Origin: a virus
Reading direction: 5' to 3' (one strand)
DNA length: 21,839 bases
Virus record (IMG/VR): IMGVR_UViG_3300025415_000133
Location: 1 to 21,839 of that record
A program made the translations under genes and the position numbers. Of this stretch, positions 3,328-15,693 are shown one piece after another. The first letter of the stretch is position 1. Every line of letters begins with the position of its first letter. The notes beneath the pieces are model-generated. The model did not search any database. It was not told where the DNA came from and saw nothing but the letters and a program-made list of their open reading frames with translations.

Positions 3328-5272
3328 CGCTTTTGCTCGGGCGTTTGCTGAGCTGCCACCCGAGAGCATTTGGGAATGGGCAGACCGGAATGTTTGGCTT
3401 GTTTCCCAGTCGGCAGCCGAGCCGGGGCTCTACCGATCTGCAAAGACTCCTTGGACCCGTCGCATCCAAGAGCTGGCACGCGAGCCGGTGGTTCCCGTCT
3501 GGAGCTGGCAGCGTTTGGAATGGACTTGGACTGCGGTCGGGGAATACACGGCCATGAAATCCAGCCAAGCTGGTCTTTCCGAGGCCGCGCTAAATATCGT
3601 GCGCTGGCGTGCCAAACACGATCCCTGCAACGTCATTTACGGAATCGATACCAGGGAAGAAGCAAAGAACATTGTCGATCGGTTGATCCCGACGCTGGCA
3701 GACATTGATCCTTCGATCTTCACAGGGGATGACGATGATGTGGGCACCTACGTCGCACGGCTGCGCGACATGATCGTCTGGTTCATCGGTTCATTTTCGA
3801 CTGGTAAGTTTGCAAACAAACAAGCCCCGCTCCGCATCTTGGACGAGATCGAAGAACATGGTGCCAAGGGAACGATCCGAGAAATGGCTTCACGTGGGAA
3901 AACCGCCGATGACGGTTTGCAAATCAATCTCAGCAAGCCCAAGTATTCCGGAGGACCAATTCACAAAGCATACGAACGCGGCAACCAGGAACATTATTTT
4001 TTCAAATGCCCTGCCTGTGGTCATAATCAATGGCCTTCATTTTTTGAAACAGCGGTCGAGACCGTGATGGATTATCAGAATCTCATCGAAGTTCGTCATC
4101 CCTCCGGCACCAGAAGCGTTCTGCTTCCGACACCTTACCCCGAAGGCCAAACCCGTACCATTCGCACGTCTCAGGTCGTGTTTGATCATTGCCGGACTCC
4201 GTTGGGTGAATGGGACCGCCTTCGCATGCTCAGCGAAGCCGCAATCCAATGCGCCTCGTGCGGACACCTCATCGATGAGCAGGCCAAGCGAGCACTTCTT
4301 CAGCGTCAATGGTGGATGCCTACTGCTCACGGTACCCCGGGCAGTGTCAGCCAGCAAATCAGCGATCTCTACTCATCGGACAAAAGCTCTTCTCTGGGAC
4401 ATCTCTCAATGGAGTACCTCGATGCTAAAAAGGAAGGTGTCGACGGCATCGCCAAGTTCTACAATCACCGCCTTGGCCTCCCCTACACGCACGAGGTCAA
4501 TGTCACCCGCGAAAGCGACATCCGAGCCAATGTTGCCGGTGCCAGCGAAGGAGACGAATGCCCTCCCTACAAGCGAGGCACCGTGCCGTTCGTCCCGTCA
4601 TGTCTTTTGCTCGGAGGGGACGTCGGAGGCAATTATGCAAAATGGGCACTTGGTGCCGTTTCTCAGAATCTGAATGATGTGGCCGTCATCGATTGGGGTG
4701 AGGAACTCGATCCTAATGCCGTTGCCGAAATCATCAATACCAAGACCTGGCCTGGCGTGGATGGGAAACCTTTGCGGATCTATTTCGGATTCCTCGATGC
4801 CAAGTTCCGAAAGACCGAAGTCTATCGCGCTTGCCTTGCCGTGCCTGGTCGTCGGCTGATCCCTACGGCTGGTCTCGGTGGTGCAGCCGCACGAAGTGGA
4901 AAAGCTTGGAGTTATCACCAAGTCGCCACCTATCAAAAAACATTGAAAGAACTCACTTACAACGACCGAGATGCCAAAGACGAACTTTACGTCTCGCGCC
5001 TAAAGAAACGCCGATCGCGCGTTTGGTTCCCGATGGATGTGGTGGGTGATCAAGAATTTGTTCAGGAGATGTGCGCCGAGGAATTGGTGCGCGACGAGCA
5101 TGGCCGCACCCGCTGGAACGAACATCCCGGAGCAAACCACTACGGAGACTGCGTGAAAGACATCATTACCGGCCTTCGCTTCTTGACCCGAAAGCAACAG
5201 GTCAGCACCGGATCTGCCGCCGTGGATAGTTCCGGGCCTACGACTCCATCGGCTCAGTCGATTGACGAATAA
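3302..5272 (+). CDS. Terminase large subunit, GpA family
   Basis: A 656-residue ATPase-nuclease that drives DNA into the procapsid and cuts it. I chose the ATG at 3302 (MFTTSILPDAFARAF) because the FAELPPESIWEWADRNV segment that follows is the normal GpA N-terminus; an earlier ATG at 3215 would add 29 basic residues overlapping the TerS frame. Seen motifs: Walker A-like MKSSQAGLS at 85-93 (the GpA variant), Walker B LRILDEIEE with D181/E182, two CxxC pairs at C236/C239 and C317/C320 suggesting a zinc-bound insertion, and nuclease-domain acids D440 (GGDVGGNYAKW) and D616 (HYGDCVKDI). The length is normal for lambda gpA. GpA-family terminases often cut at cos sites, which fits a cos-like region upstream. 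Confidence 0.93.
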   Translation: MFTTSILPDAFARAFAELPPESIWEWADRNVWLVSQSAAEPGLYRSAKTPWTRRIQELAREPVVPVWSWQRLEWTWTAVGEYTAMKSSQAGLSEAALNIVRWRAKHDPCNVIYGIDTREEAKNIVDRLIPTLADIDPSIFTGDDDDVGTYVARLRDMIVWFIGSFSTGKFANKQAPLRILDEIEEHGAKGTIREMASRGKTADDGLQINLSKPKYSGGPIHKAYERGNQEHYFFKCPACGHNQWPSFFETAVETVMDYQNLIEVRHPSGTRSVLLPTPYPEGQTRTIRTSQVVFDHCRTPLGEWDRLRMLSEAAIQCASCGHLIDEQAKRALLQRQWWMPTAHGTPGSVSQQISDLYSSDKSSSLGHLSMEYLDAKKEGVDGIAKFYNHRLGLPYTHEVNVTRESDIRANVAGASEGDECPPYKRGTVPFVPSCLLLGGDVGGNYAKWALGAVSQNLNDVAVIDWGEELDPNAVAEIINTKTWPGVDGKPLRIYFGFLDAKFRKTEVYRACLAVPGRRLIPTAGLGGAAARSGKAWSYHQVATYQKTLKELTYNDRDAKDELYVSRLKKRRSRVWFPMDVVGDQEFVQEMCAEELVRDEHGRTRWNEHPGANHYGDCVKDIITGLRFLTRKQQVSTGSAAVDSSGPTTPSAQSIDE

Positions 5273-5291
5273 AAGAGGGAAAGTCTAAAAA

Positions 5292-5318
5292 AAATCGTCT
5301 GCTGGCCTCCGGCGATTT
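5292..5318 (+). other. Hairpin between TerL and gpW-like gene
   Basis: AAATCG (5292-5297) pairs with CGATTT (5313-5318), with further CTGG/CCGG pairing inside. It runs straight into GACTT, giving TTTGACTT, a one-mismatch relative of the WTTTGACAY motif 14 bases before the next ATG. There is no T tract beyond TTT, so termination is doubtful. Confidence 0.3.
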
Positions 5319-5336
5319 GACTTGAGATCGGGGGTG

Positions 5337-5666
5337 ATGGACGCCACGCAAGCCGATTTCCAACTCGCCCTAGCCCACTATCGGATGTTTTTTCCGGATC
5401 TGGCGAGCTTGGGGACCGGCACCCCGCCAGCCATTTGGAAAGCCGAGTACGACCGGATCGCCAACGAAGGGATCACCTCCACCCTGATCACCCGTCTTTC
5501 TTATGAGGGTGGATCTACCGAAGGCATCGGAAATTTCGATCAGAAGGCTCTCATGCGTGCCCTGTTGACGGTTCGTGCCGAGCTCGATGCGACGTTCGAG
5601 CCAGTGGCTTTCGACCCAGCCGCCGTGACGCCGCGTCGCCGTTTGGGGATCCGCGTCTGGGTCTAA
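5337..5666 (+). CDS. gpW-like head-tail joining protein
   Basis: A 109-residue protein from the ATG at 5337; an in-frame GTG at 5334 and TTG at 5322 are alternatives. Its C-terminal half has the gpW pattern: a Gly/Ser-rich strand, a helix (QKALMRALLTVRAELD) and a basic, aromatic end (TPRRRLGIRVWV), comparable to lambda gpW's helix followed by QRRRGP-FYV. It also sits between terminase and portal, exactly as W does between A and B in lambda. gpW plugs the filled head and receives the tail connector. The N-terminal 55 residues are longer than in gpW and unrecognised. Confidence 0.6.
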   Translation: MDATQADFQLALAHYRMFFPDLASLGTGTPPAIWKAEYDRIANEGITSTLITRLSYEGGSTEGIGNFDQKALMRALLTVRAELDATFEPVAFDPAAVTPRRRLGIRVWV

Positions 5667-5679
5667 TTTCTTTTTTGTC

Positions 5680-7332
5680 ATGCCTAACTTGTCACAGATT
5701 CTCTCGTCGTTTCGGAGGAAACCATCGCTTCCCTCAGGTTCTCCCTTGGCTGCACCATCACGATCGCATGGTGTCACCAGCAGTGACCGCCCAGCTCGTC
5801 CGAATGCCGTCTCGAGCTACCCTGGCATGTCGTGGGCTTTCGATGCGGCCAAGCAAGCGGGCTATCGCGGATGGTTTTTCTTTCCCACACTGGAAGCAGA
5901 GGAGCAGATGCCCCGTTGGACCCGCATGGAGATCAACCGCAAGGCGAACTGGCTCTACAATAACGTCGATGCAGTTCGCATGGTGATCGACGGGCTGGCG
6001 CTCGATGAGGTCGATGGAGGGATCTGGCCGAAATGGACCACCTCCAATCCCGCGTTTAATAAACTTGCAACAGACCTGTTTGATAACAGCTGTGGTGACG
6101 CCCGCTTTTTTTCCGCTTCGGCCAAAGAGAATTTTTATTCCGTTCAGTTCATGATCCGCCGAGCGGTGCGCCTCTATGGAGAGATTTTTGCACAGTTCTT
6201 GCGTCCCGTGACGTCTGTAGGTTTCCCGCTTGTCCATTTCCTTAACGCCTGGCAATGCGGCAACGCCTCCACCGAAGCGGATCAGACTTCGTGGAAAGAT
6301 GGCGTCATGACCGATCGCTTCGGTCGTGCCATCCGGTATCGATTCTTGAAAAATGCCGAAGGAAGCGATTGGGAAGACATTTCGGCAGATGATATTCTGC
6401 ATCAGCACGATCAGTTCTGGAACGGACAGGTGCGCGGCATGAGTGCCCTGGCCCCGGTCGCAAGGAAGCTCTTTTCCATGGCGGATATCGAGAAAAGTGA
6501 AATCAGCGGCACCTTGCTTCGCACGCGTCTCGCTTATGCTATTACCAAGAAAGATGACGGGGATGGATTACCGCCAATGATCCCCGGTGCTTCGATGAAC
6601 ATGCAGCTCGACGCCCCTGGTGGGGGCAAGCTCATGGTTCAGAAACTCATTTCCATGGATGACAGCGAAGTTGATGTCGCCGATCTTCCAGCCGGTCAAG
6701 ATATCAAAGTGGTCGAGAGTAACCGTTCAACGGAAACGCCGGAGTTTTTGCGTTTCCTACTTGAGGGGGTGGCCCGCGCCACGCTTTATCCACCCGAGTA
6801 TGTGTTTAACCTTGCCAATCTTGGCCAGGGCACGCTTGTTCGCATGGTTCAGAAACGCGTCCAACGGATCAAAAACAGCGTTCGCAGTTTTCAATTAAGC
6901 GATCAGTTTTGCCGTCGCTGGGTCACTTACTGGACTTGGCAGAGCATCGCAAGTGGCCGTTTCGATGAAGTCGAAGGAGGAATCCCTTCGGATTGGTGGA
7001 AAGTGAAATTCATCATGCCCGCCGATGATACCGTCGATGTCGCCCGCGAGGGAAAACTCTACGACCAGAGGCTTGAGGATGGCAACATGAGCCCGGAGGA
7101 ATACCACGGCATGCAGGGACATGACGCGGAGGATGTCGAGGATCTCGTAGTGGCCGGTGCCGTGCGGAAAGCCCGCAAAATCAAGACAGCCATCGATGCA
7201 AATCCCGACATCGCCGATCTTATCCGCTTCCAGCTTGAGAGTCGCGCGGGGGTAGTGGCTGAGGCTGATCCCCTGCCTGCCGAGCCCGAAGATGATTCCG
7301 TGACTGCAAAATCAAACCCTAAGAAAAAATAA
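5680..7332 (+). CDS. Portal protein, lambda gpB family
   Basis: A 550-residue portal, the dodecameric ring at the vertex through which DNA enters and leaves. Recognisable blocks are the N-terminal MEINRKANWLYNNVDAVRMV helix region, GVMTDRFGRAIRYRF in the middle, then ISADDILHQHDQFWNGQVRG leading into MSALAPVARKL, which correspond closely to lambda-family portals (pattern: D-hG-PhAYRh, hLHh-pGQhRGhShLAPhh). The C-terminal part contains VSPEEY-like NMSPEEYHGMQGHDAEDVED and a charged tail. The ATG follows a T-rich leader (CTAATTTCTTTTTTGTC) with no Shine-Dalgarno sequence. It is followed after 22 bases by the protease gene, as expected for a B-C arrangement. Confidence 0.92.
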   Translation: MPNLSQILSSFRRKPSLPSGSPLAAPSRSHGVTSSDRPARPNAVSSYPGMSWAFDAAKQAGYRGWFFFPTLEAEEQMPRWTRMEINRKANWLYNNVDAVRMVIDGLALDEVDGGIWPKWTTSNPAFNKLATDLFDNSCGDARFFSASAKENFYSVQFMIRRAVRLYGEIFAQFLRPVTSVGFPLVHFLNAWQCGNASTEADQTSWKDGVMTDRFGRAIRYRFLKNAEGSDWEDISADDILHQHDQFWNGQVRGMSALAPVARKLFSMADIEKSEISGTLLRTRLAYAITKKDDGDGLPPMIPGASMNMQLDAPGGGKLMVQKLISMDDSEVDVADLPAGQDIKVVESNRSTETPEFLRFLLEGVARATLYPPEYVFNLANLGQGTLVRMVQKRVQRIKNSVRSFQLSDQFCRRWVTYWTWQSIASGRFDEVEGGIPSDWWKVKFIMPADDTVDVAREGKLYDQRLEDGNMSPEEYHGMQGHDAEDVEDLVVAGAVRKARKIKTAIDANPDIADLIRFQLESRAGVVAEADPLPAEPEDDSVTAKSNPKKK

Positions 7333-7354: not shown

Positions 7355-8269
7355 ATGAAACTCAATTTACCACTTCTTCACCGCGTGGTTGCTCAGCCTT
7401 GGGCAATCAAACGGGATTCGCTTCGACTTTTTACCCGCCTGATCCTCGAAGGGGGTGATTCGCTTTTGAATACTTCTCCCGTTGGCGGTGCTCGAACCGA
7501 CATGACAGCGCTCAAGACCAAGCGTCCTGCTCGCGTAAAAGCCGGTCAATACATGCCGCTAAATTTCGAGAGCGATTACGCCGAGGATAACGATTCTTTG
7601 CCCCAGCTCGATGACCCCGAAGGTGGCCTCTATGTGGTCATGCCATGGGGAGTATTAGGGAGGGCATGGAGTGTCGTGGAGAAAATGTGGCTCGATGCCG
7701 TTGATTGCGACGACATGATCAACGCCGTCGCGGCTACTCCCGAGGGATCGACGGTCGTGCTCTGGTTCCGATCTCCAGGAGGAGTCATCAGCGGGATCCC
7801 CGAAGCGGCTGCTCAATTGCGCCAGCTGGGCAAATCCCGCCGCTTGCTTGCTTTCACCGATGATATGTGCTGCTCGGCAGCCTATTGGCTCGCGGCTCAG
7901 TGTTCGGAAATCCATGCGACTCCGACGGCAGACCTCGGTTCGATCGGCGTCTATATCGCCATGTACGATTACACCGACATGATGGAGAATTCGGGGATCT
8001 CGCTGGAGCTTTTCAAAGCCGGAACCATGAAAGCCATGGGAATCGCGGGCAATCGTCTCAGCGATGAGGAATCCGTTTTCCTTCAAGGCCAAGTGGACGA
8101 GAGCTATCGCGCTTTCACCGCCGATGTCACAGCCAACCGCGCGATCTCGCCCGAAACCATGCAGGGACAATCGCTTCGGGGAAAAGACGCTCTTTCGGCA
8201 AATCTTGCCGACAAATTCTGGCCATCCTCTTCGGCATTCTTCACTGCACTTGGTAAAGGCCGAATTTAA
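7355..8269 (+). CDS. S49 head-maturation protease (gpC-like)
   Basis: A 304-residue protein of the SppA/lambda gpC type, which cleaves scaffold and portal during head maturation. The oxyanion strand FRSPGGVISGIPEAA is followed by the catalytic serine S174 in DMCCSAAYWLA and by DLGSIGVYIA. The likely general-base lysine is K226 in LFKAGTMKAMG. The Ser-Lys spacing of 52 equals that of the short SppA proteases (S147/K199 in Bacillus subtilis, from memory). The C-terminal block RGKDALSANLADKFW is typical of the family (GxxAxxxGLaD). Unlike lambda gpC, it ends about 130 residues earlier and lacks the scaffold-type C-terminal extension; scaffold is a separate gene further on. It ends 4 bases inside a convergent small gene. 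Confidence 0.9.
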   Translation: MKLNLPLLHRVVAQPWAIKRDSLRLFTRLILEGGDSLLNTSPVGGARTDMTALKTKRPARVKAGQYMPLNFESDYAEDNDSLPQLDDPEGGLYVVMPWGVLGRAWSVVEKMWLDAVDCDDMINAVAATPEGSTVVLWFRSPGGVISGIPEAAAQLRQLGKSRRLLAFTDDMCCSAAYWLAAQCSEIHATPTADLGSIGVYIAMYDYTDMMENSGISLELFKAGTMKAMGIAGNRLSDEESVFLQGQVDESYRAFTADVTANRAISPETMQGQSLRGKDALSANLADKFWPSSSAFFTALGKGRI

Positions 8270-8427
8270 ACGGTTCTAACATATTCCTCCAACCACTCCC
8301 AGACAGTCAGATCCGGAGGGGAGGATAGGGCGTCAAACATTGCCCTTTCCAACTCAGAGACAGCATCTACCAATTTACTACTAATTTGTTTACAATTAGT
8401 AGTTGGCAACGGGCGGACGGATCCCAT
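8266..8427 (-). CDS. Possible 53-residue - strand gene (moron-like)
   Basis: The reverse strand holds an open frame from ATG at 8427 to TAA at 8266, preceded in frame by TAG one codon upstream of the ATG. The protein begins MGSVRPLPTTNCKQI and its second half reads SELERAMFDALSSPPDLTVW then EWLEEYVRTV, an acidic, amphipathic sequence with two Trp residues that looks like real protein rather than chance. It converges on the protease gene, overlapping its stop by 4 bases, and is separated from the downstream late genes by a terminator that could work in both directions. Small, independently transcribed genes of this kind (morons) are known between phage structural genes. A perfect hairpin covers its N-terminal codons, so the start may be further in. 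No family was recognised. Confidence 0.4.
   Translation of the reverse strand: MGSVRPLPTTNCKQISSKLVDAVSELERAMFDALSSPPDLTVWEWLEEYVRTV
8377..8403. other. 10-base perfect inverted repeat
   Basis: ACTACTAATT (8377-8386) and AATTAGTAGT (8394-8403) flank a 7-base loop TGTTTAC. The stem is AT-rich and lies within the protease-scaffold gap, inside the beginning of the candidate - strand gene. It could be an operator for that gene or a transcript structure. Confidence 0.5.
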
Positions 8428-8462
8428 GCCCTATTTATGATCCGTTTGGCCTGATCTTTTAT

Positions 8463-8500
8463 AAAACCCTTCTCTGCACGTGCAGAGAGGGGTTTTTTTT
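8463..8500 (+). terminator. Strong, possibly bidirectional intrinsic terminator
   Basis: CTCTGCAC (8472-8479) pairs perfectly with GTGCAGAG (8480-8487), extended by CCC/GGG across a small bulge, and is followed by TTTTTTTT (8493-8500). On the opposite strand the stem is followed by TTTT (the AAAA at 8463-8466), so weaker termination is possible there too. It separates packaging/portal/protease genes from scaffold and capsid. Confidence 0.9.
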
Positions 8501-8513
8501 GGAGTTGTTTGTC

Positions 8514-10492: not shown

Positions 10493-10816
10493 ATGAATCC
10501 CCAACAGATTGCCAGTTTCGCCGCCCGTGGAGCAGCGATGGGTATTTCCGCTCAGGGCACCTCCGTCATTTTCCGGGGAGTTACCATGAATATCCGCATC
10601 AGCACCGCTCCACCGGCGCTTGATCTGGTTAGTGGTGGATTTTCTCAAAAGCAGAATTGGCGTCTTCGATTCCCTGCGTCGATCACACCACCTCCGGCCG
10701 CGCTTGAAAAAGTCAAGGATGTGGCTTCCGGAAAAACCTTTGTGATCCGGGGGGTTGTGCCAGCCACGATCAGCCCGTTAGCTGCGGAGCACATCGCCGA
10801 AGCCGAATGGCAATAA
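10493..10816 (+). CDS. Probable head-tail adaptor (neck) protein
   Basis: A 107-residue protein. The middle and end (VIFRGVTMNIRISTAP, LRFPASITPPPAALEKVKDV, FVIRGVVPATISPLAAEHIA) suggest a small beta-barrel fold like the FII/adaptor proteins that join the head connector to the tail, which have alternating strands and a parameter like 'GKTFVIRGV' near the end. Position after the capsid gene and before the next tail-end protein agrees with a neck role. No clear catalytic or metal motif. The family match is weak and by pattern only. Confidence 0.5.
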   Translation: MNPQQIASFAARGAAMGISAQGTSVIFRGVTMNIRISTAPPALDLVSGGFSQKQNWRLRFPASITPPPAALEKVKDVASGKTFVIRGVVPATISPLAAEHIAEAEWQ

Positions 10817-10835
10817 GTGCCTCATCCATTAATTC

Positions 10836-11255
10836 ATGAATCCACTTCTTATCGAACAAGCTCTCGTTTCCGCGTTCACGGCCTCGCTGGCCGGGACATC
10901 GCTTTCCGCTGCCACCGTTTATGCAGGGACAAGTGATCAGATCCTGACACCCGAGAGCGTGAATCTCTCGGTAGGAGTTGAAACCATGACGCCGGTAGGC
11001 CCTGGACTCTATACCTCGCCGGTGCTGATCCGTCTGACGGCTCCGGCGCTCTTGGGAGATTCCATGTATGCCGACATGAGTGCCTATCTCGATGTGCTCG
11101 GTATCATCACCGCGTCGGAAAGTATTACCAGCCACTGGCCTTCCGGCAATTCGATTGGGTTTTTCGGAAGCTGGCTTCAGGAGACAACGACTGGACGTGA
11201 GGGAGATCAATGGACGGCAGAAATGCGGCTCCTGATCGGTATCGGGGCGATTTGA
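10836..11255 (+). CDS. Probable tail terminator / tail completion protein
   Basis: A 139-residue protein starting with a helix (PLLIEQALVSAFTASLAG), followed by mixed beta strands (VNLSVGVETMTPVGPGLYTS, TAEMRLLIGIGAI). This alpha-then-beta plan, and its place just before the tail-tube gene, is what tail terminator proteins (gpU and its relatives) show; they cap the tail tube and attach it to the head. Its TGA stop lies within the ATTTGACAC motif. No specific residues prove the function. Confidence 0.5.
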   Translation: MNPLLIEQALVSAFTASLAGTSLSAATVYAGTSDQILTPESVNLSVGVETMTPVGPGLYTSPVLIRLTAPALLGDSMYADMSAYLDVLGIITASESITSHWPSGNSIGFFGSWLQETTTGREGDQWTAEMRLLIGIGAI

Positions 11256-11258
11256 CAC
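11250..11258 (+). promoter_or_regulatory. WTTTGACAY junction motif, copy 4
   Basis: ATTTGACAC containing the stop codon of the preceding gene (TGA 11253-11255). It is followed by a C/A-rich, G-poor leader ending AACTCAACCCAACTACT before the tail-tube ATG, 30 bases away. Confidence 0.4.
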
Positions 11259-11287
11259 CTCGCCCTCAGTAACTCAACCCAACTACT

Positions 11288-11662
11288 ATGGCTGCAACTA
11301 TTCTTGGATCCTCTCTTCTTTCGGCAACTTTCGGCTGCACTGCTGAAACGGGAATTCTTGTTTCTTCATTTTCTGAGACATCCACGGCAGATAAAGCCGA
11401 AGTCCGCGACAACGACGGCGATGTGGTGCTTAAGGCTTTTTACAACCCCAAAACCACGTTTTCGGTTTCTGGAACAATCACCGGAACTACTGGTGTCGCT
11501 GCGGCTGCCGTAGCCGGGCTTCTGACGGTAGCAAACCTCGACACGCTTGTCGGAGGAGTTTCCGGAGGTGGATCCTATGTTGAATCGGTTGCCATTAACA
11601 AAAAGCCCGATGGCTTCAAAGAAATCACGGTCTCGGGCGAGCGCAATCCAAACATTTCCTGA
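11288..11662 (+). CDS. Major tail tube protein (probable)
   Basis: A 124-residue, beta-rich protein with the features of short tail-tube subunits: an N-terminal strand region, a segment on modified tube contacts (EVRDNDGDVVLKAFYNPKTT) followed by FSVSGTITGTTG, and a C-terminal strand with the common ending pattern (VESVAINKKPDGFKEITVSG then ERNPNIS), in which the last strand pairs into the hexameric ring. Its leader shares the CAACCCAAC sequence with the capsid leader, as expected if both are made in very large amounts. It is somewhat short for a tail tube protein. A hairpin follows the gene. Confidence 0.65.
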   Translation: MAATILGSSLLSATFGCTAETGILVSSFSETSTADKAEVRDNDGDVVLKAFYNPKTTFSVSGTITGTTGVAAAAVAGLLTVANLDTLVGGVSGGGSYVESVAINKKPDGFKEITVSGERNPNIS

Positions 11663-11701: not shown

Positions 11702-11719
11702 GCCAATGAATATTTGAAT

Positions 11720-12136
11720 ATGTCCTCCGAAGAAGATTCCGTAAAAGGTGGATGGTTTTCCACTTCCGATCTCAAGCTCGCAGTAGCGCTCCAGGTGGCG
11801 GGTTTCCCGTTTAAGGCAAATGCAGAATGCACGCGACTGACCGATCCTCAGAACCGGGAGATTTTCACCTGGCATTTCGAGACCATGAATTCCGACGGGG
11901 AGAAAATAGTGAATTTCCTTTCAGCGTGGGAGAGCGATGGATTGTCGATGCCTCGCCCCTCGAATCTGGTTGCTTTCCTAGTGGCGCGTGAAGTGATGTT
12001 CGCGCGCACGCATATCATTGCCGAGAGTCACAAGGTTCCCAAAGCCACGCTTCGCAACCGAGGCGACAAGCGTTTGCTCGTCTCGGCACGCCTCGGGCGG
12101 GAAGAGCGCCAGAAACTTGCTCAACTCGCCTCCTAG
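11720..12136 (+). CDS. Hypothetical protein in the tail cluster (DUF5659-like?)
   Basis: A 138-residue protein from ATG 11720. Residues 11-33 (GWFSTSDLKLAVALQVAGFP) and the following strand REIFTWHFET resemble the small 'TsDlyLAayL--kG' domain found in many phage and bacterial proteins (DUF5659, from memory), with a helix (FLVAREVMFARTHIIAESHK) and a basic tail after it. It lies between the tail tube and the tail chaperone. The start context TTGAATATG is identical to that of the next gene. The function is not known; a tail-assembly accessory role is suggested only by position. Confidence 0.55.
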   Translation: MSSEEDSVKGGWFSTSDLKLAVALQVAGFPFKANAECTRLTDPQNREIFTWHFETMNSDGEKIVNFLSAWESDGLSMPRPSNLVAFLVAREVMFARTHIIAESHKVPKATLRNRGDKRLLVSARLGREERQKLAQLAS

Positions 12137-12165: not shown

Positions 12166-12606
12166 ATGATCGACGACATGTCCCCTGACCTGAATACCGA
12201 CGAACGCAACCGCGCTCTCGACACGGAAATGCTCAAGAGCGGCGACGAAATCGCTGGGATCGAGCTTCGATCGATCACGGCGGGGGATCTGGCACTCCTC
12301 ATTGAGAATGGAGTTGGGATCGTGGTCGGTCGGACTGATTCGATAGCGTTCGATGTCGGAGCAATCCTTTACTCGCAGAGCAGGCCCCGCGAGACCGTGC
12401 GGCGGGTGGCAGGCCGGGCAAAAGGGGCTTTCCGTGACATGGTCTACGATTTCCTCGACATGTATGAGCCCGATGTCTTTCAGGAAGCGACTCCGAAGAT
12501 CGTCGAGCTTGTCGAGCGGATGAATTCCGCTCGCACCGCCATCCGTGGCGAGGCTTCCGGATCGGGTGGAGAGTCCGACCCAAAAGCTGGCGGCCAGGCT
12601 GGCTGA
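12166..12606 (+). CDS. Tail assembly chaperone, short form (gpG-like)
   Basis: A 146-residue protein from ATG 12166; the upstream TTG at 12160 is an alternative. Short helical protein with IRSITAGDLALLIENGVGI-type segments and a Gly/Ser-rich end (GEASGSGGESDPKAGGQAG), located just before the tape measure region. In lambda-like phages such a protein (gpG) is made alone and, by a -1 frameshift near its end, as a longer GT fusion; both hold the tape measure protein for tube assembly. A canonical slippery site lies 20 bases before its stop. Length is close to lambda gpG (140). Confidence 0.75.
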   Translation: MIDDMSPDLNTDERNRALDTEMLKSGDEIAGIELRSITAGDLALLIENGVGIVVGRTDSIAFDVGAILYSQSRPRETVRRVAGRAKGAFRDMVYDFLDMYEPDVFQEATPKIVELVERMNSARTAIRGEASGSGGESDPKAGGQAG

Positions 12607-12797
12607 CGAGCTACGTTGCTAGGCTGGCCGAGAAAACTTCTTGGTCATTTGATTTCATCCTCTGGGAGCTTCCTTTTACAGAAGGTCTCCGGATCCTCGA
12701 TTATCACGTCTGGCGTGATGGGAAATCGCTTCGCTGGTCCGATGATGTGGTTGACATCGATGACCTAGAGGATGGCGAAGCCGAAAATTACGATTGA
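12166..12797 (+). CDS. Tail assembly chaperone, GT frameshift fusion
   Basis: Shifting back one base at the CCCAAAA heptamer joins residues 1-140 of the short form to 70 residues read from 12585 to the TGA at 12795-12797, giving 210 residues. The added part (SWRPGWLTSYVARLAEKTSW, then SFDFILWELPFTEGLRILDY, HVWRDGKSLRW and an acidic tail) looks like a T domain: Trp-rich, with the W-hP--EGL pattern. This frame has no start codon of its own and fills the otherwise empty stretch up to the next gene, overlapping it by 26 bases. In lambda, the G domain binds the tape measure and the T domain recruits tube subunits. Ratio of forms is unknown. Confidence 0.75.
12579..12585 (+). promoter_or_regulatory. 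-1 ribosomal frameshift site CCCAAAA
   Basis: In the gpG frame the codons read GAC CCA AAA GCT, giving the X-XXY-YYZ heptamer C-CCA-AAA. Five bases after it a stem begins: CGGCCAG (12591-12597) pairs with CTGGCCG (12624-12630). A Shine-Dalgarno-like GGTGGAG (12565-12571) lies 7 bases upstream. Heptamer, spacing, stem and upstream element are the usual set for programmed -1 frameshifting. Confidence 0.8.
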
Positions 12798-13611
12798 TAA
12801 CTCGAAACTTCTCAAACGCATGAAGCGTTATGAGGAGGTCACGGGCAAGGAAGTGGCAGCTTCGCTCCGTCGTGGTGCGCGTCTCATGGCAGTCAATCTG
12901 GCGATCTCAACTCCCCCTTTTGGCAAAGATGCGACGGCTCGGAAATTAGGCGAGCGTGCCGTTCAAAACGACATCTTGAGGATCTACACACCGGCGACTC
13001 CCATCAGCACAAAGTACCCGACGACTCAATGGAGTTTTCAAGAGCAGATTCAAAAATTCCTGACGAAAAGTCCCAAGCTCCAGCAAGCAATCCTCGGAGC
13101 CGTGAAGGCTGCTGATCCTGAGCGGTTGCGAAGTATTGTTTCGGGATTGCCGACATTTTCCAAACTTACGTTTGACCATGGAGTGGATCGGAGTGTGCAT
13201 GCCCGGACTCGGAATGCATACGGACGCGTCCGCAAGGGGTGGAAAGGTCGCAACGTCGTGATGAACTCGCGGGACCTTCAGTTTTTCATCCAACGCAAAC
13301 AAGAGTTGGTCGGCCTTACCAAAGCCGCGTGGGCTGCCTGTGCCCTCGATGTGCAGGCGGATGTGAAAGATGCACTCAGTGGCATCCCTGCCTGGGTGAG
13401 GCGACATGTGGGCAAGGTGTCCCATGCAGTGGACGATCAGAGTGAGAAATCCCTCCCGCTCATTAAGCTCACCAGCAAGGTTCCCTGGGCTGATAAAGCC
13501 CTGCGGTCCAACGATCACAAAGAAGCCATCCGCCTCTCGCGGGAGAAGTTTTACAAGAGCCTCGGAATCGAAATCCGAATGGCACTCAAAAAAGCACGGG
13601 AAGAAGGATGA
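12772..13611 (+). CDS. HK97-gp10/gpZ-like tail morphogenesis protein (tentative)
   Basis: A 279-residue basic protein starting with the only clear AGAGG-type ribosome site in this part of the window (CTAGAGGATGG). The N-terminus LKRMKRYEEVTGKEVAASLR has RRGARLMAVNLAISTPP after it, the pattern of small tail/virion-morphogenesis proteins (helical start, then release of a long loop). A second part, GLTKAAWAACALDVQADV and then IPAWVRRHVGKVS, is the GKAKAxWL--A region with P-WVxRH that such proteins carry. Normally this family lies between the neck and tail-tube genes; here it follows the GT chaperone and overlaps it. Twice the usual length, with unrecognised middle sequence. Confidence 0.5.
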   Translation: MAKPKITIDNSKLLKRMKRYEEVTGKEVAASLRRGARLMAVNLAISTPPFGKDATARKLGERAVQNDILRIYTPATPISTKYPTTQWSFQEQIQKFLTKSPKLQQAILGAVKAADPERLRSIVSGLPTFSKLTFDHGVDRSVHARTRNAYGRVRKGWKGRNVVMNSRDLQFFIQRKQELVGLTKAAWAACALDVQADVKDALSGIPAWVRRHVGKVSHAVDDQSEKSLPLIKLTSKVPWADKALRSNDHKEAIRLSREKFYKSLGIEIRMALKKAREEG

Positions 13612-13633: not shown

Positions 13634-13678
13634 ATGAAGAGCGCGGCCGATGACAGGCTTCTGAGCCAATCCTACTGA
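13634..13678 (+). CDS. Possible 14-codon leader peptide before the tape measure
   Basis: ATG at 13634 opens a frame MKSAADDRLLSQSY whose TGA (13676-13678) overlaps the tape measure ATG as TGATG. This is the ideal geometry for termination-reinitiation. No Shine-Dalgarno sequence precedes either start, so coupling may help the ribosome reach the tape measure start. It could be chance in a 66-base gap. Confidence 0.35.
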   Translation: MKSAADDRLLSQSY

Positions 13679-15693
13679 TGAGTGACGTCACAGTAGCTCT
13701 CGGCGTCACCGGGAAAGACCTGATCACGGGTGCTTTCCATGACGTGGCTAAGTCTGGTGAAGAAATGAGCAAGGCGCTCATGGAACACACCAAGAAACTT
13801 GCGGAAGCCTTCATCGGTTGGGAAACCTTGAAAAAAGGTGCCGAGATTTTCATGCAAACCCTTGAAGAAGGGGGGCGGATTACAAATCTAAGTGATCAAA
13901 CGGGAATTGCTGCCGAGAAACTGACCATTCTGGAACGTGCTTTCCAGAATAGCGGCATGGAAGCCGAGACGATGGGGAGCGTCGTCAATAAGATGCAGAA
14001 GTTTTTGGTCGAGGCCGGTGATTCCACAAGCGAAGCGGCCTATCATATCGGCCAACTGGGGCTGAATTTCGGCACACTCCAGCAAATGACCCCGGATGAG
14101 CAACTGAAAGCCATCGGGCAAGCCATCGCGTCGATCCCGGATAGTTCGGAACGGGCGGCGGCGGCACTCGGGATTTTCGGCAAGAGCGGCGGGAAACTGA
14201 TGACGTTCTTCAAGGATTTCGATGAAAAAGTTGCCGAATCGAAAGAGCAGCTCGGAGAGTATTCGTCGATCATGGGAATGAATGCCGAGGAGTTCGAGAA
14301 GCTCGGCGATACCATTAAGAACGGGATCGGTCACAAACTGATCGAATTCACAGCCGGCGCGCTCAGTAATGCCACCGGTGGCCTCCAGGAGCTCTCGGAC
14401 AAGATTGCCAAATTCGATGCTGCAAAATTCGGTAAAGAGATCACCGACGGGCTAGGAAAGCCATTACTGGCCATCGCCAAGGATCTGACCTCGGGAAATT
14501 TCAAAGATGCCTTCGAGCTGGCTTATGAGCTGGTGAAATTGCAAGCCATGAAAATGGGCAATGAACTTTTTCGTGCTTTTGATGCCGCGATTGCTGGCGT
14601 GTCGGATTTTCTAGCGGGTGCGTTTTCTCCAGACAGCTATTTGCTCGCTTACATCAAGACAGCATTCACCGTTCTCGGTGATTACATTGCGTCAACTCTT
14701 CAGAAAGCCTTGATCGGCATGCTGGATGGCATTCCGATGTTTTCTAAAGAAGTTTCGATTTTAAAATATCAACTTGAGACGACGAATCGTGAAATCAGCA
14801 TGTCTCAAGAGGCTCTTGCCTCAGGGTTCGATGTGGCAGCTGGCGAACTGGGCAAAGTAGTCGCTCATGCTGCTAATGTAACGGAAGAGACTTACAAAAC
14901 AGCAGAAGCTCATTTTGACGTTCGACAACAGCAAGACAAAATTGCAAGTCTGACCAAAGAACAGCTCGAGCATCAAAAGAAGCTGACGGAGGGAAAAGAG
15001 AAAGAATCAAAGGCAACGGAGACTACGGCCAAGCATACGAAATCGACGGTCGCTGCACTCAAGGAAGGGGCCTCGGCAATGAATGCGGCCAATGCGGCAA
15101 ATGCCAATGCAACAGGGGGAGCCCGATGGACTGCCAAAGCTGCGCCTATTATTGACCCAGCCATGGTGGCGACAGGACTCTATAAGAACACTACCAATCT
15201 CGGGCTCGATATGCAGGAAAAGCTCGCGGCTTCTTCGATGGGGATTTCTTCCCAGCTTAGCAAGCAATTCGATCCTGGTATCAAAGCGGCTCAGGCTGCC
15301 GGTGACTGGCGGGGAGCGGCTTACCTGGAGCGCAAGCGTGCCGAAAAGCAACAGGAGGAGCAAGAGATCGGATTACGGAAGGCGCAGTTGGAAGACGCTG
15401 GCTGGTCTTCGGCAGCGGCTCGTGAGCAGATTGAGAAAGAACGAGCCGGAAAAGGAGCAACCTTTGATCCGATCACCAAGCGTCCAACCCCTGCCCCGCT
15501 CTACAACGACATCAATAAAGTCCCTGGCCCGATTGCTACATCCGCTGGGACTGCTGGTGATGCAGGAGCATCAGCGGCAACAAAAGACCCTATGGGGGAC
15601 ATTCTCAAGCTACTTAGCAAATACCTTCCAAGCATTGACGAGTCTGCTGACGACATCCAGACCAACACCGAAAACTTTGCAGTTCTGGCATAA
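13678..15693 (+). CDS. Tape measure protein
   Basis: A 671-residue protein with the typical tape measure look: Ala/Gly/Lys-rich helices throughout, an N-terminal IGWETLKKGAEIFMQTLEEG and SDQTGIAAEKLTILERAFQN block, SIPDSSERAAAALGIFGKSG, GEYSSIMGMNAEEFEKLGDT, a moderately hydrophobic stretch at about residues 291-355 that may contact membranes, a coiled coil near 404-455, and a low-complexity Ala/Asn segment (NAANAANANATGGARW). These proteins set tail length and pass into the host on infection. At the usual 1.5 angstrom per residue the tail would be about 100 nm, an inference. No lysozyme or peptidase domain is seen. Confidence 0.9.
   Translation: MSDVTVALGVTGKDLITGAFHDVAKSGEEMSKALMEHTKKLAEAFIGWETLKKGAEIFMQTLEEGGRITNLSDQTGIAAEKLTILERAFQNSGMEAETMGSVVNKMQKFLVEAGDSTSEAAYHIGQLGLNFGTLQQMTPDEQLKAIGQAIASIPDSSERAAAALGIFGKSGGKLMTFFKDFDEKVAESKEQLGEYSSIMGMNAEEFEKLGDTIKNGIGHKLIEFTAGALSNATGGLQELSDKIAKFDAAKFGKEITDGLGKPLLAIAKDLTSGNFKDAFELAYELVKLQAMKMGNELFRAFDAAIAGVSDFLAGAFSPDSYLLAYIKTAFTVLGDYIASTLQKALIGMLDGIPMFSKEVSILKYQLETTNREISMSQEALASGFDVAAGELGKVVAHAANVTEETYKTAEAHFDVRQQQDKIASLTKEQLEHQKKLTEGKEKESKATETTAKHTKSTVAALKEGASAMNAANAANANATGGARWTAKAAPIIDPAMVATGLYKNTTNLGLDMQEKLAASSMGISSQLSKQFDPGIKAAQAAGDWRGAAYLERKRAEKQQEEQEIGLRKAQLEDAGWSSAAAREQIEKERAGKGATFDPITKRPTPAPLYNDINKVPGPIATSAGTAGDAGASAATKDPMGDILKLLSKYLPSIDESADDIQTNTENFAVLA

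Follow-up and report, generated by a model that had tools for sequence, protein, structure and literature searches.

The making of a short protein together with a rare longer one from a single message, by a −1 slip near the end of the gene, is well known in phages. The −1 shift between G and T is widely conserved in long-tailed phages, and in lambda, which produces gpG and gpGT, a short upstream open reading frame (ORF) carries a canonical heptamer near its 3′ end and continues into a −1 C-terminal domain, with the site placed between the tail-tube and tape-measure genes (Levin 1993; Xu 2004, 2013; reviewed in PMC5009743). Frameshifting has also been measured, at 7%, for a GeneTack-tested cluster of HK97-type tail-assembly chaperones (PMC3711429). 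The whole stretch of DNA analysed here (the window), the 21,839-base virus record IMGVR_UViG_3300025415_000133, is a metagenomic virus contig that resembles lambda in each of these features, its tail-tube gene being a candidate, and resembles the HK97-type cluster in its putative two-frame chaperone gene using frameshifting, the shift in the window being predicted from sequence. It departs from lambda in having no detectable sequence similarity, in its heptamer, C CCA AAA followed by a stem-loop, in the length of T (about 70 aa, versus a lambda T ORF annotated as 435 nt) and in an extra gene between T and the tape-measure gene; and whereas the HK97-type cluster was named by similarity to the HK97 protein, the domains in the window match no named chaperone family.

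We consider it highly probable that this locus encodes a tail-assembly chaperone of the G/GT type and that its longer product arises by programmed −1 ribosomal frameshifting. An earlier note on the same DNA had proposed lambda-type G/GT frameshifting, and the heptamer, a covarying stem, selection on the −1 frame and the position upstream of the tape-measure gene all fit that proposal and support it; that slippage takes place, its level and the chaperone role of the products we infer from the sequence.

The two reading frames and their neighbourhood

The G-like ORF (12166..12606, plus strand) encodes 146 aa from ATG 12166 to a TGA that ends at 12606, and this would be the standard translation product. 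TTG 12160 is an alternative start, but ATG 12166 is favoured by the relatives, in which G homologues lie upstream of T as they do in the window. The T-like domain occupies the −1 frame of the same strand (12585..12797; 70 aa; stop TGA 12795-12797; core W..DFILWELP). This frame is free of stop codons over 12468-12794, and its sole ATG, GTG or TTG, GTG 12747, lies 3′ of the conserved core, too late to serve, so that the T domain has no usable start codon in the window; the coordinates agree with the start-less, T-like frame running to 12797 that the earlier note had described, and its statement that a normal gene caller would miss T was upheld, the domain being invisible to such callers. The predicted GT fusion (12166..12797, plus strand) would join 140 G residues, through the AAA codon, to 70 T residues, for a total of about 210 aa.

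Across 11 close sequences, the T codons 3′ of the G stop had no stops and a pN/pS of 0.226, compared with values of 1.25 and 1.90, with stops present, in the two other frames, all of these ratios being approximate because synonymous change is near saturation. These substitutions indicate purifying selection on the protein encoded by the T frame.

Both domains sit in a tail-gene setting on the plus strand, and a portal (lambda family) and a major capsid protein were also recognised in the window. G and T are flanked by a candidate gene for the major tail protein and by the gene for the tape measure. The former, a candidate tail-tube protein (11288..11662), is identified by its position 5′ of G alone, having homologues in relatives and no library match, and a conserved ORF of no assigned function follows it just 5′ of G (11714..12136). 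A conserved 279-aa ORF (12772..13611) overlaps the end of T and separates it from the gene for the tape-measure protein (13678..15693; PHROG 9483, E 1.2e-16), which is thus one gene after T. Ten close relatives share the order of tube candidate, 11714-type ORF, G, T, 12772-type ORF and tape measure. In two close relatives (L007 and L008), additional DNA of about 1.1 kb (5193-6286) that the others do not have separates T from the 12772-type gene. A possible homologue of 12772-13611 was found in the Akkermansia phage Moulinsart at 7740-8510 (E 7e-4), far upstream in the head-tail region, which argues that the place of this gene beside T is not fixed.

Searches with the window G and T and with distant G proteins against Pfam, PHROGs and NCBIfam gave nothing significant with a named function; the best named tail-chaperone match, Phage_TAC_7 in one relative, was not significant (E 0.069), and hhalign against lambda gpG gave a probability of 0.2%, with no detectable homology. 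Known G/GT families have little sequence in common, so the missing match is weak evidence. The T domain matched PHROG 11996 (unknown function, 208 positions) weakly in 11 of 16 relatives, at E 0.001 for the best of them, and the window T reached a borderline E of 0.056 over profile positions 146-173. TetR-type regulators from a PDB profile search reached only E 0.03-0.04 and were taken as chance matches. A tblastn search of T against 50,697 phage records gave no match. The AlphaFold model of G (pLDDT 75) had no Foldseek match in the PDB at E 0.001 or better and a VIA-align Z of at most 3.2, its best BFVD match being an uncharacterised phage protein (E 0.017, probability 1.00), and that of T (pLDDT 67) consisted of short helices with no informative match. 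Because no sequence tie to a named family or to lambda gpG was found, its mechanism and position, and not homology, decide how the locus is classified; the sequence family of G and T appears, from these comparisons, to be undescribed in the libraries searched.

Slippery heptamer and downstream stem-loop

C CCA AAA, the slippery heptamer, occupies 12579..12585 on the plus strand, in register with G (0-frame codons CCA 12580-12582 and AAA 12583-12585), as the earlier note had read it. T-domain searches of IMG/VR returned 18 and then 80 loci, genomes added 2 more, and removal of duplicates left 75 distinct loci, window included. These searches used a protein profile only and the heptamer played no part in them, so that it counts as independent evidence. 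The earlier note had named conservation of the heptamer and of a stop-free −1 frame in relatives as a check, and 73 of the 75 loci keep both without change of register or column, their canonical X XXY YYZ heptamer standing exactly 75 nt 5′ of the [FY]ILW codon (GGGAAAC in 31, CCCAAAC in 30, CCCAAAA in 10 and AAAAAAA in 2). The two exceptions are one locus with G and T in a single open frame and one distant locus from Bacteroidetes that lacks a canonical heptamer. Elsewhere in the same G ORFs, an in-register XXXYYYZ occurs at 10/8484 codon positions (0.12%), which gives the level expected by chance. We caution against reading the 73 heptamers as 73 independent events, because the 75 loci are kin; however, four heptamer types in one column argue that function has been maintained. 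The DNA around the heptamer is invariant within the close CCCAAAA clade (C CCA AAA GCTGG), and in other loci AAAAAAA, CCCAAAC or GGGAAAC replaces CCCAAAA in the same column.

These counts bear on an alternative interpretation in which the heptamer has no role and T is a separate small protein, for which ribosomes re-initiate at a non-canonical start once they have passed the G stop. The T start is indeed close to the G stop, a CTG codon stands in the T frame near the beginning of the conserved part, several relatives have an in-frame start somewhere 5′ of the T core, and T of Moulinsart is annotated as its own CDS from ATG 11120. We nevertheless consider re-initiation very unlikely, since the window and many relatives have no ATG, GTG or TTG 5′ of the core in the T frame, and since it leaves unexplained both the fixed-column heptamer (73/75 loci) and two one-frame loci.

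A stem-loop follows the heptamer in the window (12591..12630, plus strand). Its outer 7 bp (CGGCCAG/CTGGCCG, 12591-12597 with 12624-12630) begin 5 nt 3′ of the heptamer, as claimed in the earlier note, and sit on a longer inner stem made up of inner helices; the fold of 12579-12640 has an energy of −28.6 kcal/mol (z −3.0). The window and the family follow one pairing rule, base i with base 51−i counted from the first base after the heptamer. Among 55 distinct sequences, standard pairs filled 84.6% of the cells of an 11-pair stem (8-18 with 33-43), compared with at most 50.4% in slid registers, and 72 cells had changes on both sides of the stem, which is covariation; the codon constraint of T adds to the conservation of both arms. 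The spacer of 5-7 nt is within the reviewed range of 5-9 nt (PMC5009743). Counting pairs in the 55-sequence stem alignment supports the register, but RNAalifold returned no consensus structure for the same alignment, and some close relatives (L007/L025 and L008) have a disrupted outer stem, so that support for the stem is strong but not universal.

The conserved stem also bears on whether the extra frame is reached through slippage of RNA polymerase on a homopolymer, and not of the ribosome. Slippage during transcription in bacteria has been discussed for runs of 9 A or T (PMC5009743), and long A runs occur at the site in some relatives (L014, L015 and L114-L117), but the window has CCC AAAA and most relatives have GGGAAAC or CCCAAAC, which are too short for known RNA polymerase slippage and yet hold the same register. 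Together with the tandem-slip heptamer rule, the stem points to ribosomes, and we regard polymerase slippage as extremely improbable. A sequencing error in the metagenomic virus contig, or decay of the gene, has practically no probability left as the cause of the frame change and is already refuted by the relatives, since 73 distinct loci, and the genome of an isolated phage as well, have the same frame relation, and purifying selection acts on the T frame.

Under programmed −1 ribosomal frameshifting, most ribosomes would make the 146-aa G and terminate at 12604-12606, and a smaller share would pause at the stem-loop 5 nt ahead while their P- and A-site tRNAs are on CCA AAA (12580-12585); both tRNAs would then move back one base and re-pair on CCC AAA, and −1 reading to 12797 would give a GT of about 210 aa. 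If the proteins act as in lambda, G would coat the tape-measure protein, whose gene follows shortly after, while the few GT molecules would use their T part to recruit tail-tube subunits and thereby let the tube polymerise around the tape measure; the finished virion need contain neither G nor GT.

The earlier note had also listed an upstream GGTGGAG among the frameshift signals. This possible internal Shine-Dalgarno-like stimulator is present in the window (12565..12571, plus strand), 7 nt 5′ of the heptamer, and within the window clade the element stands at a suitable distance and beats most of the G ORF. However, against shuffles of the same bases it is no stronger in that clade than composition predicts, and it is absent from the GGGAAAC clade and not conserved outside the window clade. 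Its presence therefore stands, whereas conservation beyond the window clade and strength above composition do not, and it was rejected as a universal stimulator; it may aid the shift in the window but is not a defining part.

Distribution in bacterial genomes and phages

The T profile matched 15 of 387 Verrucomicrobiota genomes and 3 of 395 Bacteroidota genomes; one of these three (L122) was rejected as a homologue, having stops inside, and is not credible. An in-register heptamer was present in 12 of the 15 Verrucomicrobiota matches. Two others are one-frame loci, in which G and T are read without a shift (L104/L105, with L104:7605-8246 encoding 213 aa, and L112, on the reverse strand at about 1501-1671), and in the last (L119) a run of nine A lies in a different register. 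The window terminase had Moulinsart as its top-ranked match, at only 25% identity, and the host of the window virus is likely a member of the Verrucomicrobiota.

Moulinsart (ON453896, L123), an isolated phage, has the same layout as the window, with an in-register heptamer, a T-like −1 frame and a tape-measure gene downstream, but its sequence is very distant and three further genes precede the tape measure. The in-register A AAA AAC (11081-11087) stands at the 3′ end of Moulinsart gene 10632-11090, and translation of the T-like −1 frame gives LAEPDGWAGLIMIMARATGWTEYYIKHMPLKILLQYVHAW. The record annotates the region as two hypothetical proteins (WAK79076 and WAK79077); on sequence grounds, 10632-11335 likely contains an unannotated G/GT frameshift at A AAA AAC.

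We hold, with moderate confidence, that these loci form an undescribed family of frameshifted tail chaperones that is widespread in Verrucomicrobiota phages and prophages, including an Akkermansia phage, with slippery site and stem-loop held in one register across at least four canonical heptamer types, and with some lineages in which the gene is one-frame and the shift has been given up. No frameshifting in the phylum Verrucomicrobiota was described in the literature searched. Since T is invisible to normal gene callers and G and T have no match to a named family of Pfam, PHROGs or NCBIfam, such phages appear to lack tail chaperones; the FILWELP core and the heptamer that precedes it by 75 nt form a profile with which the gene could be annotated across many uncultivated phages. 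Moulinsart on Akkermansia muciniphila offers an isolated system for measuring frameshifting, and the natural one-frame versions pose the question of how a phage lives without a G:GT ratio.

Three loci differ in their frame relation or slip site. In L119, around 1470-1500, G and T are offset by +1 or −2 at the nine-A run, unlike in its relatives L118 and L120, which reflects either an assembly indel or a different shift. In the Bacteroidota loci L103 (around 7900-8087) and L121 (reverse strand), G and T stand in a −1 relation with no canonical in-register heptamer; both have the motif KPRLS in the G frame before the stop, which suggests that another slip site may be used.
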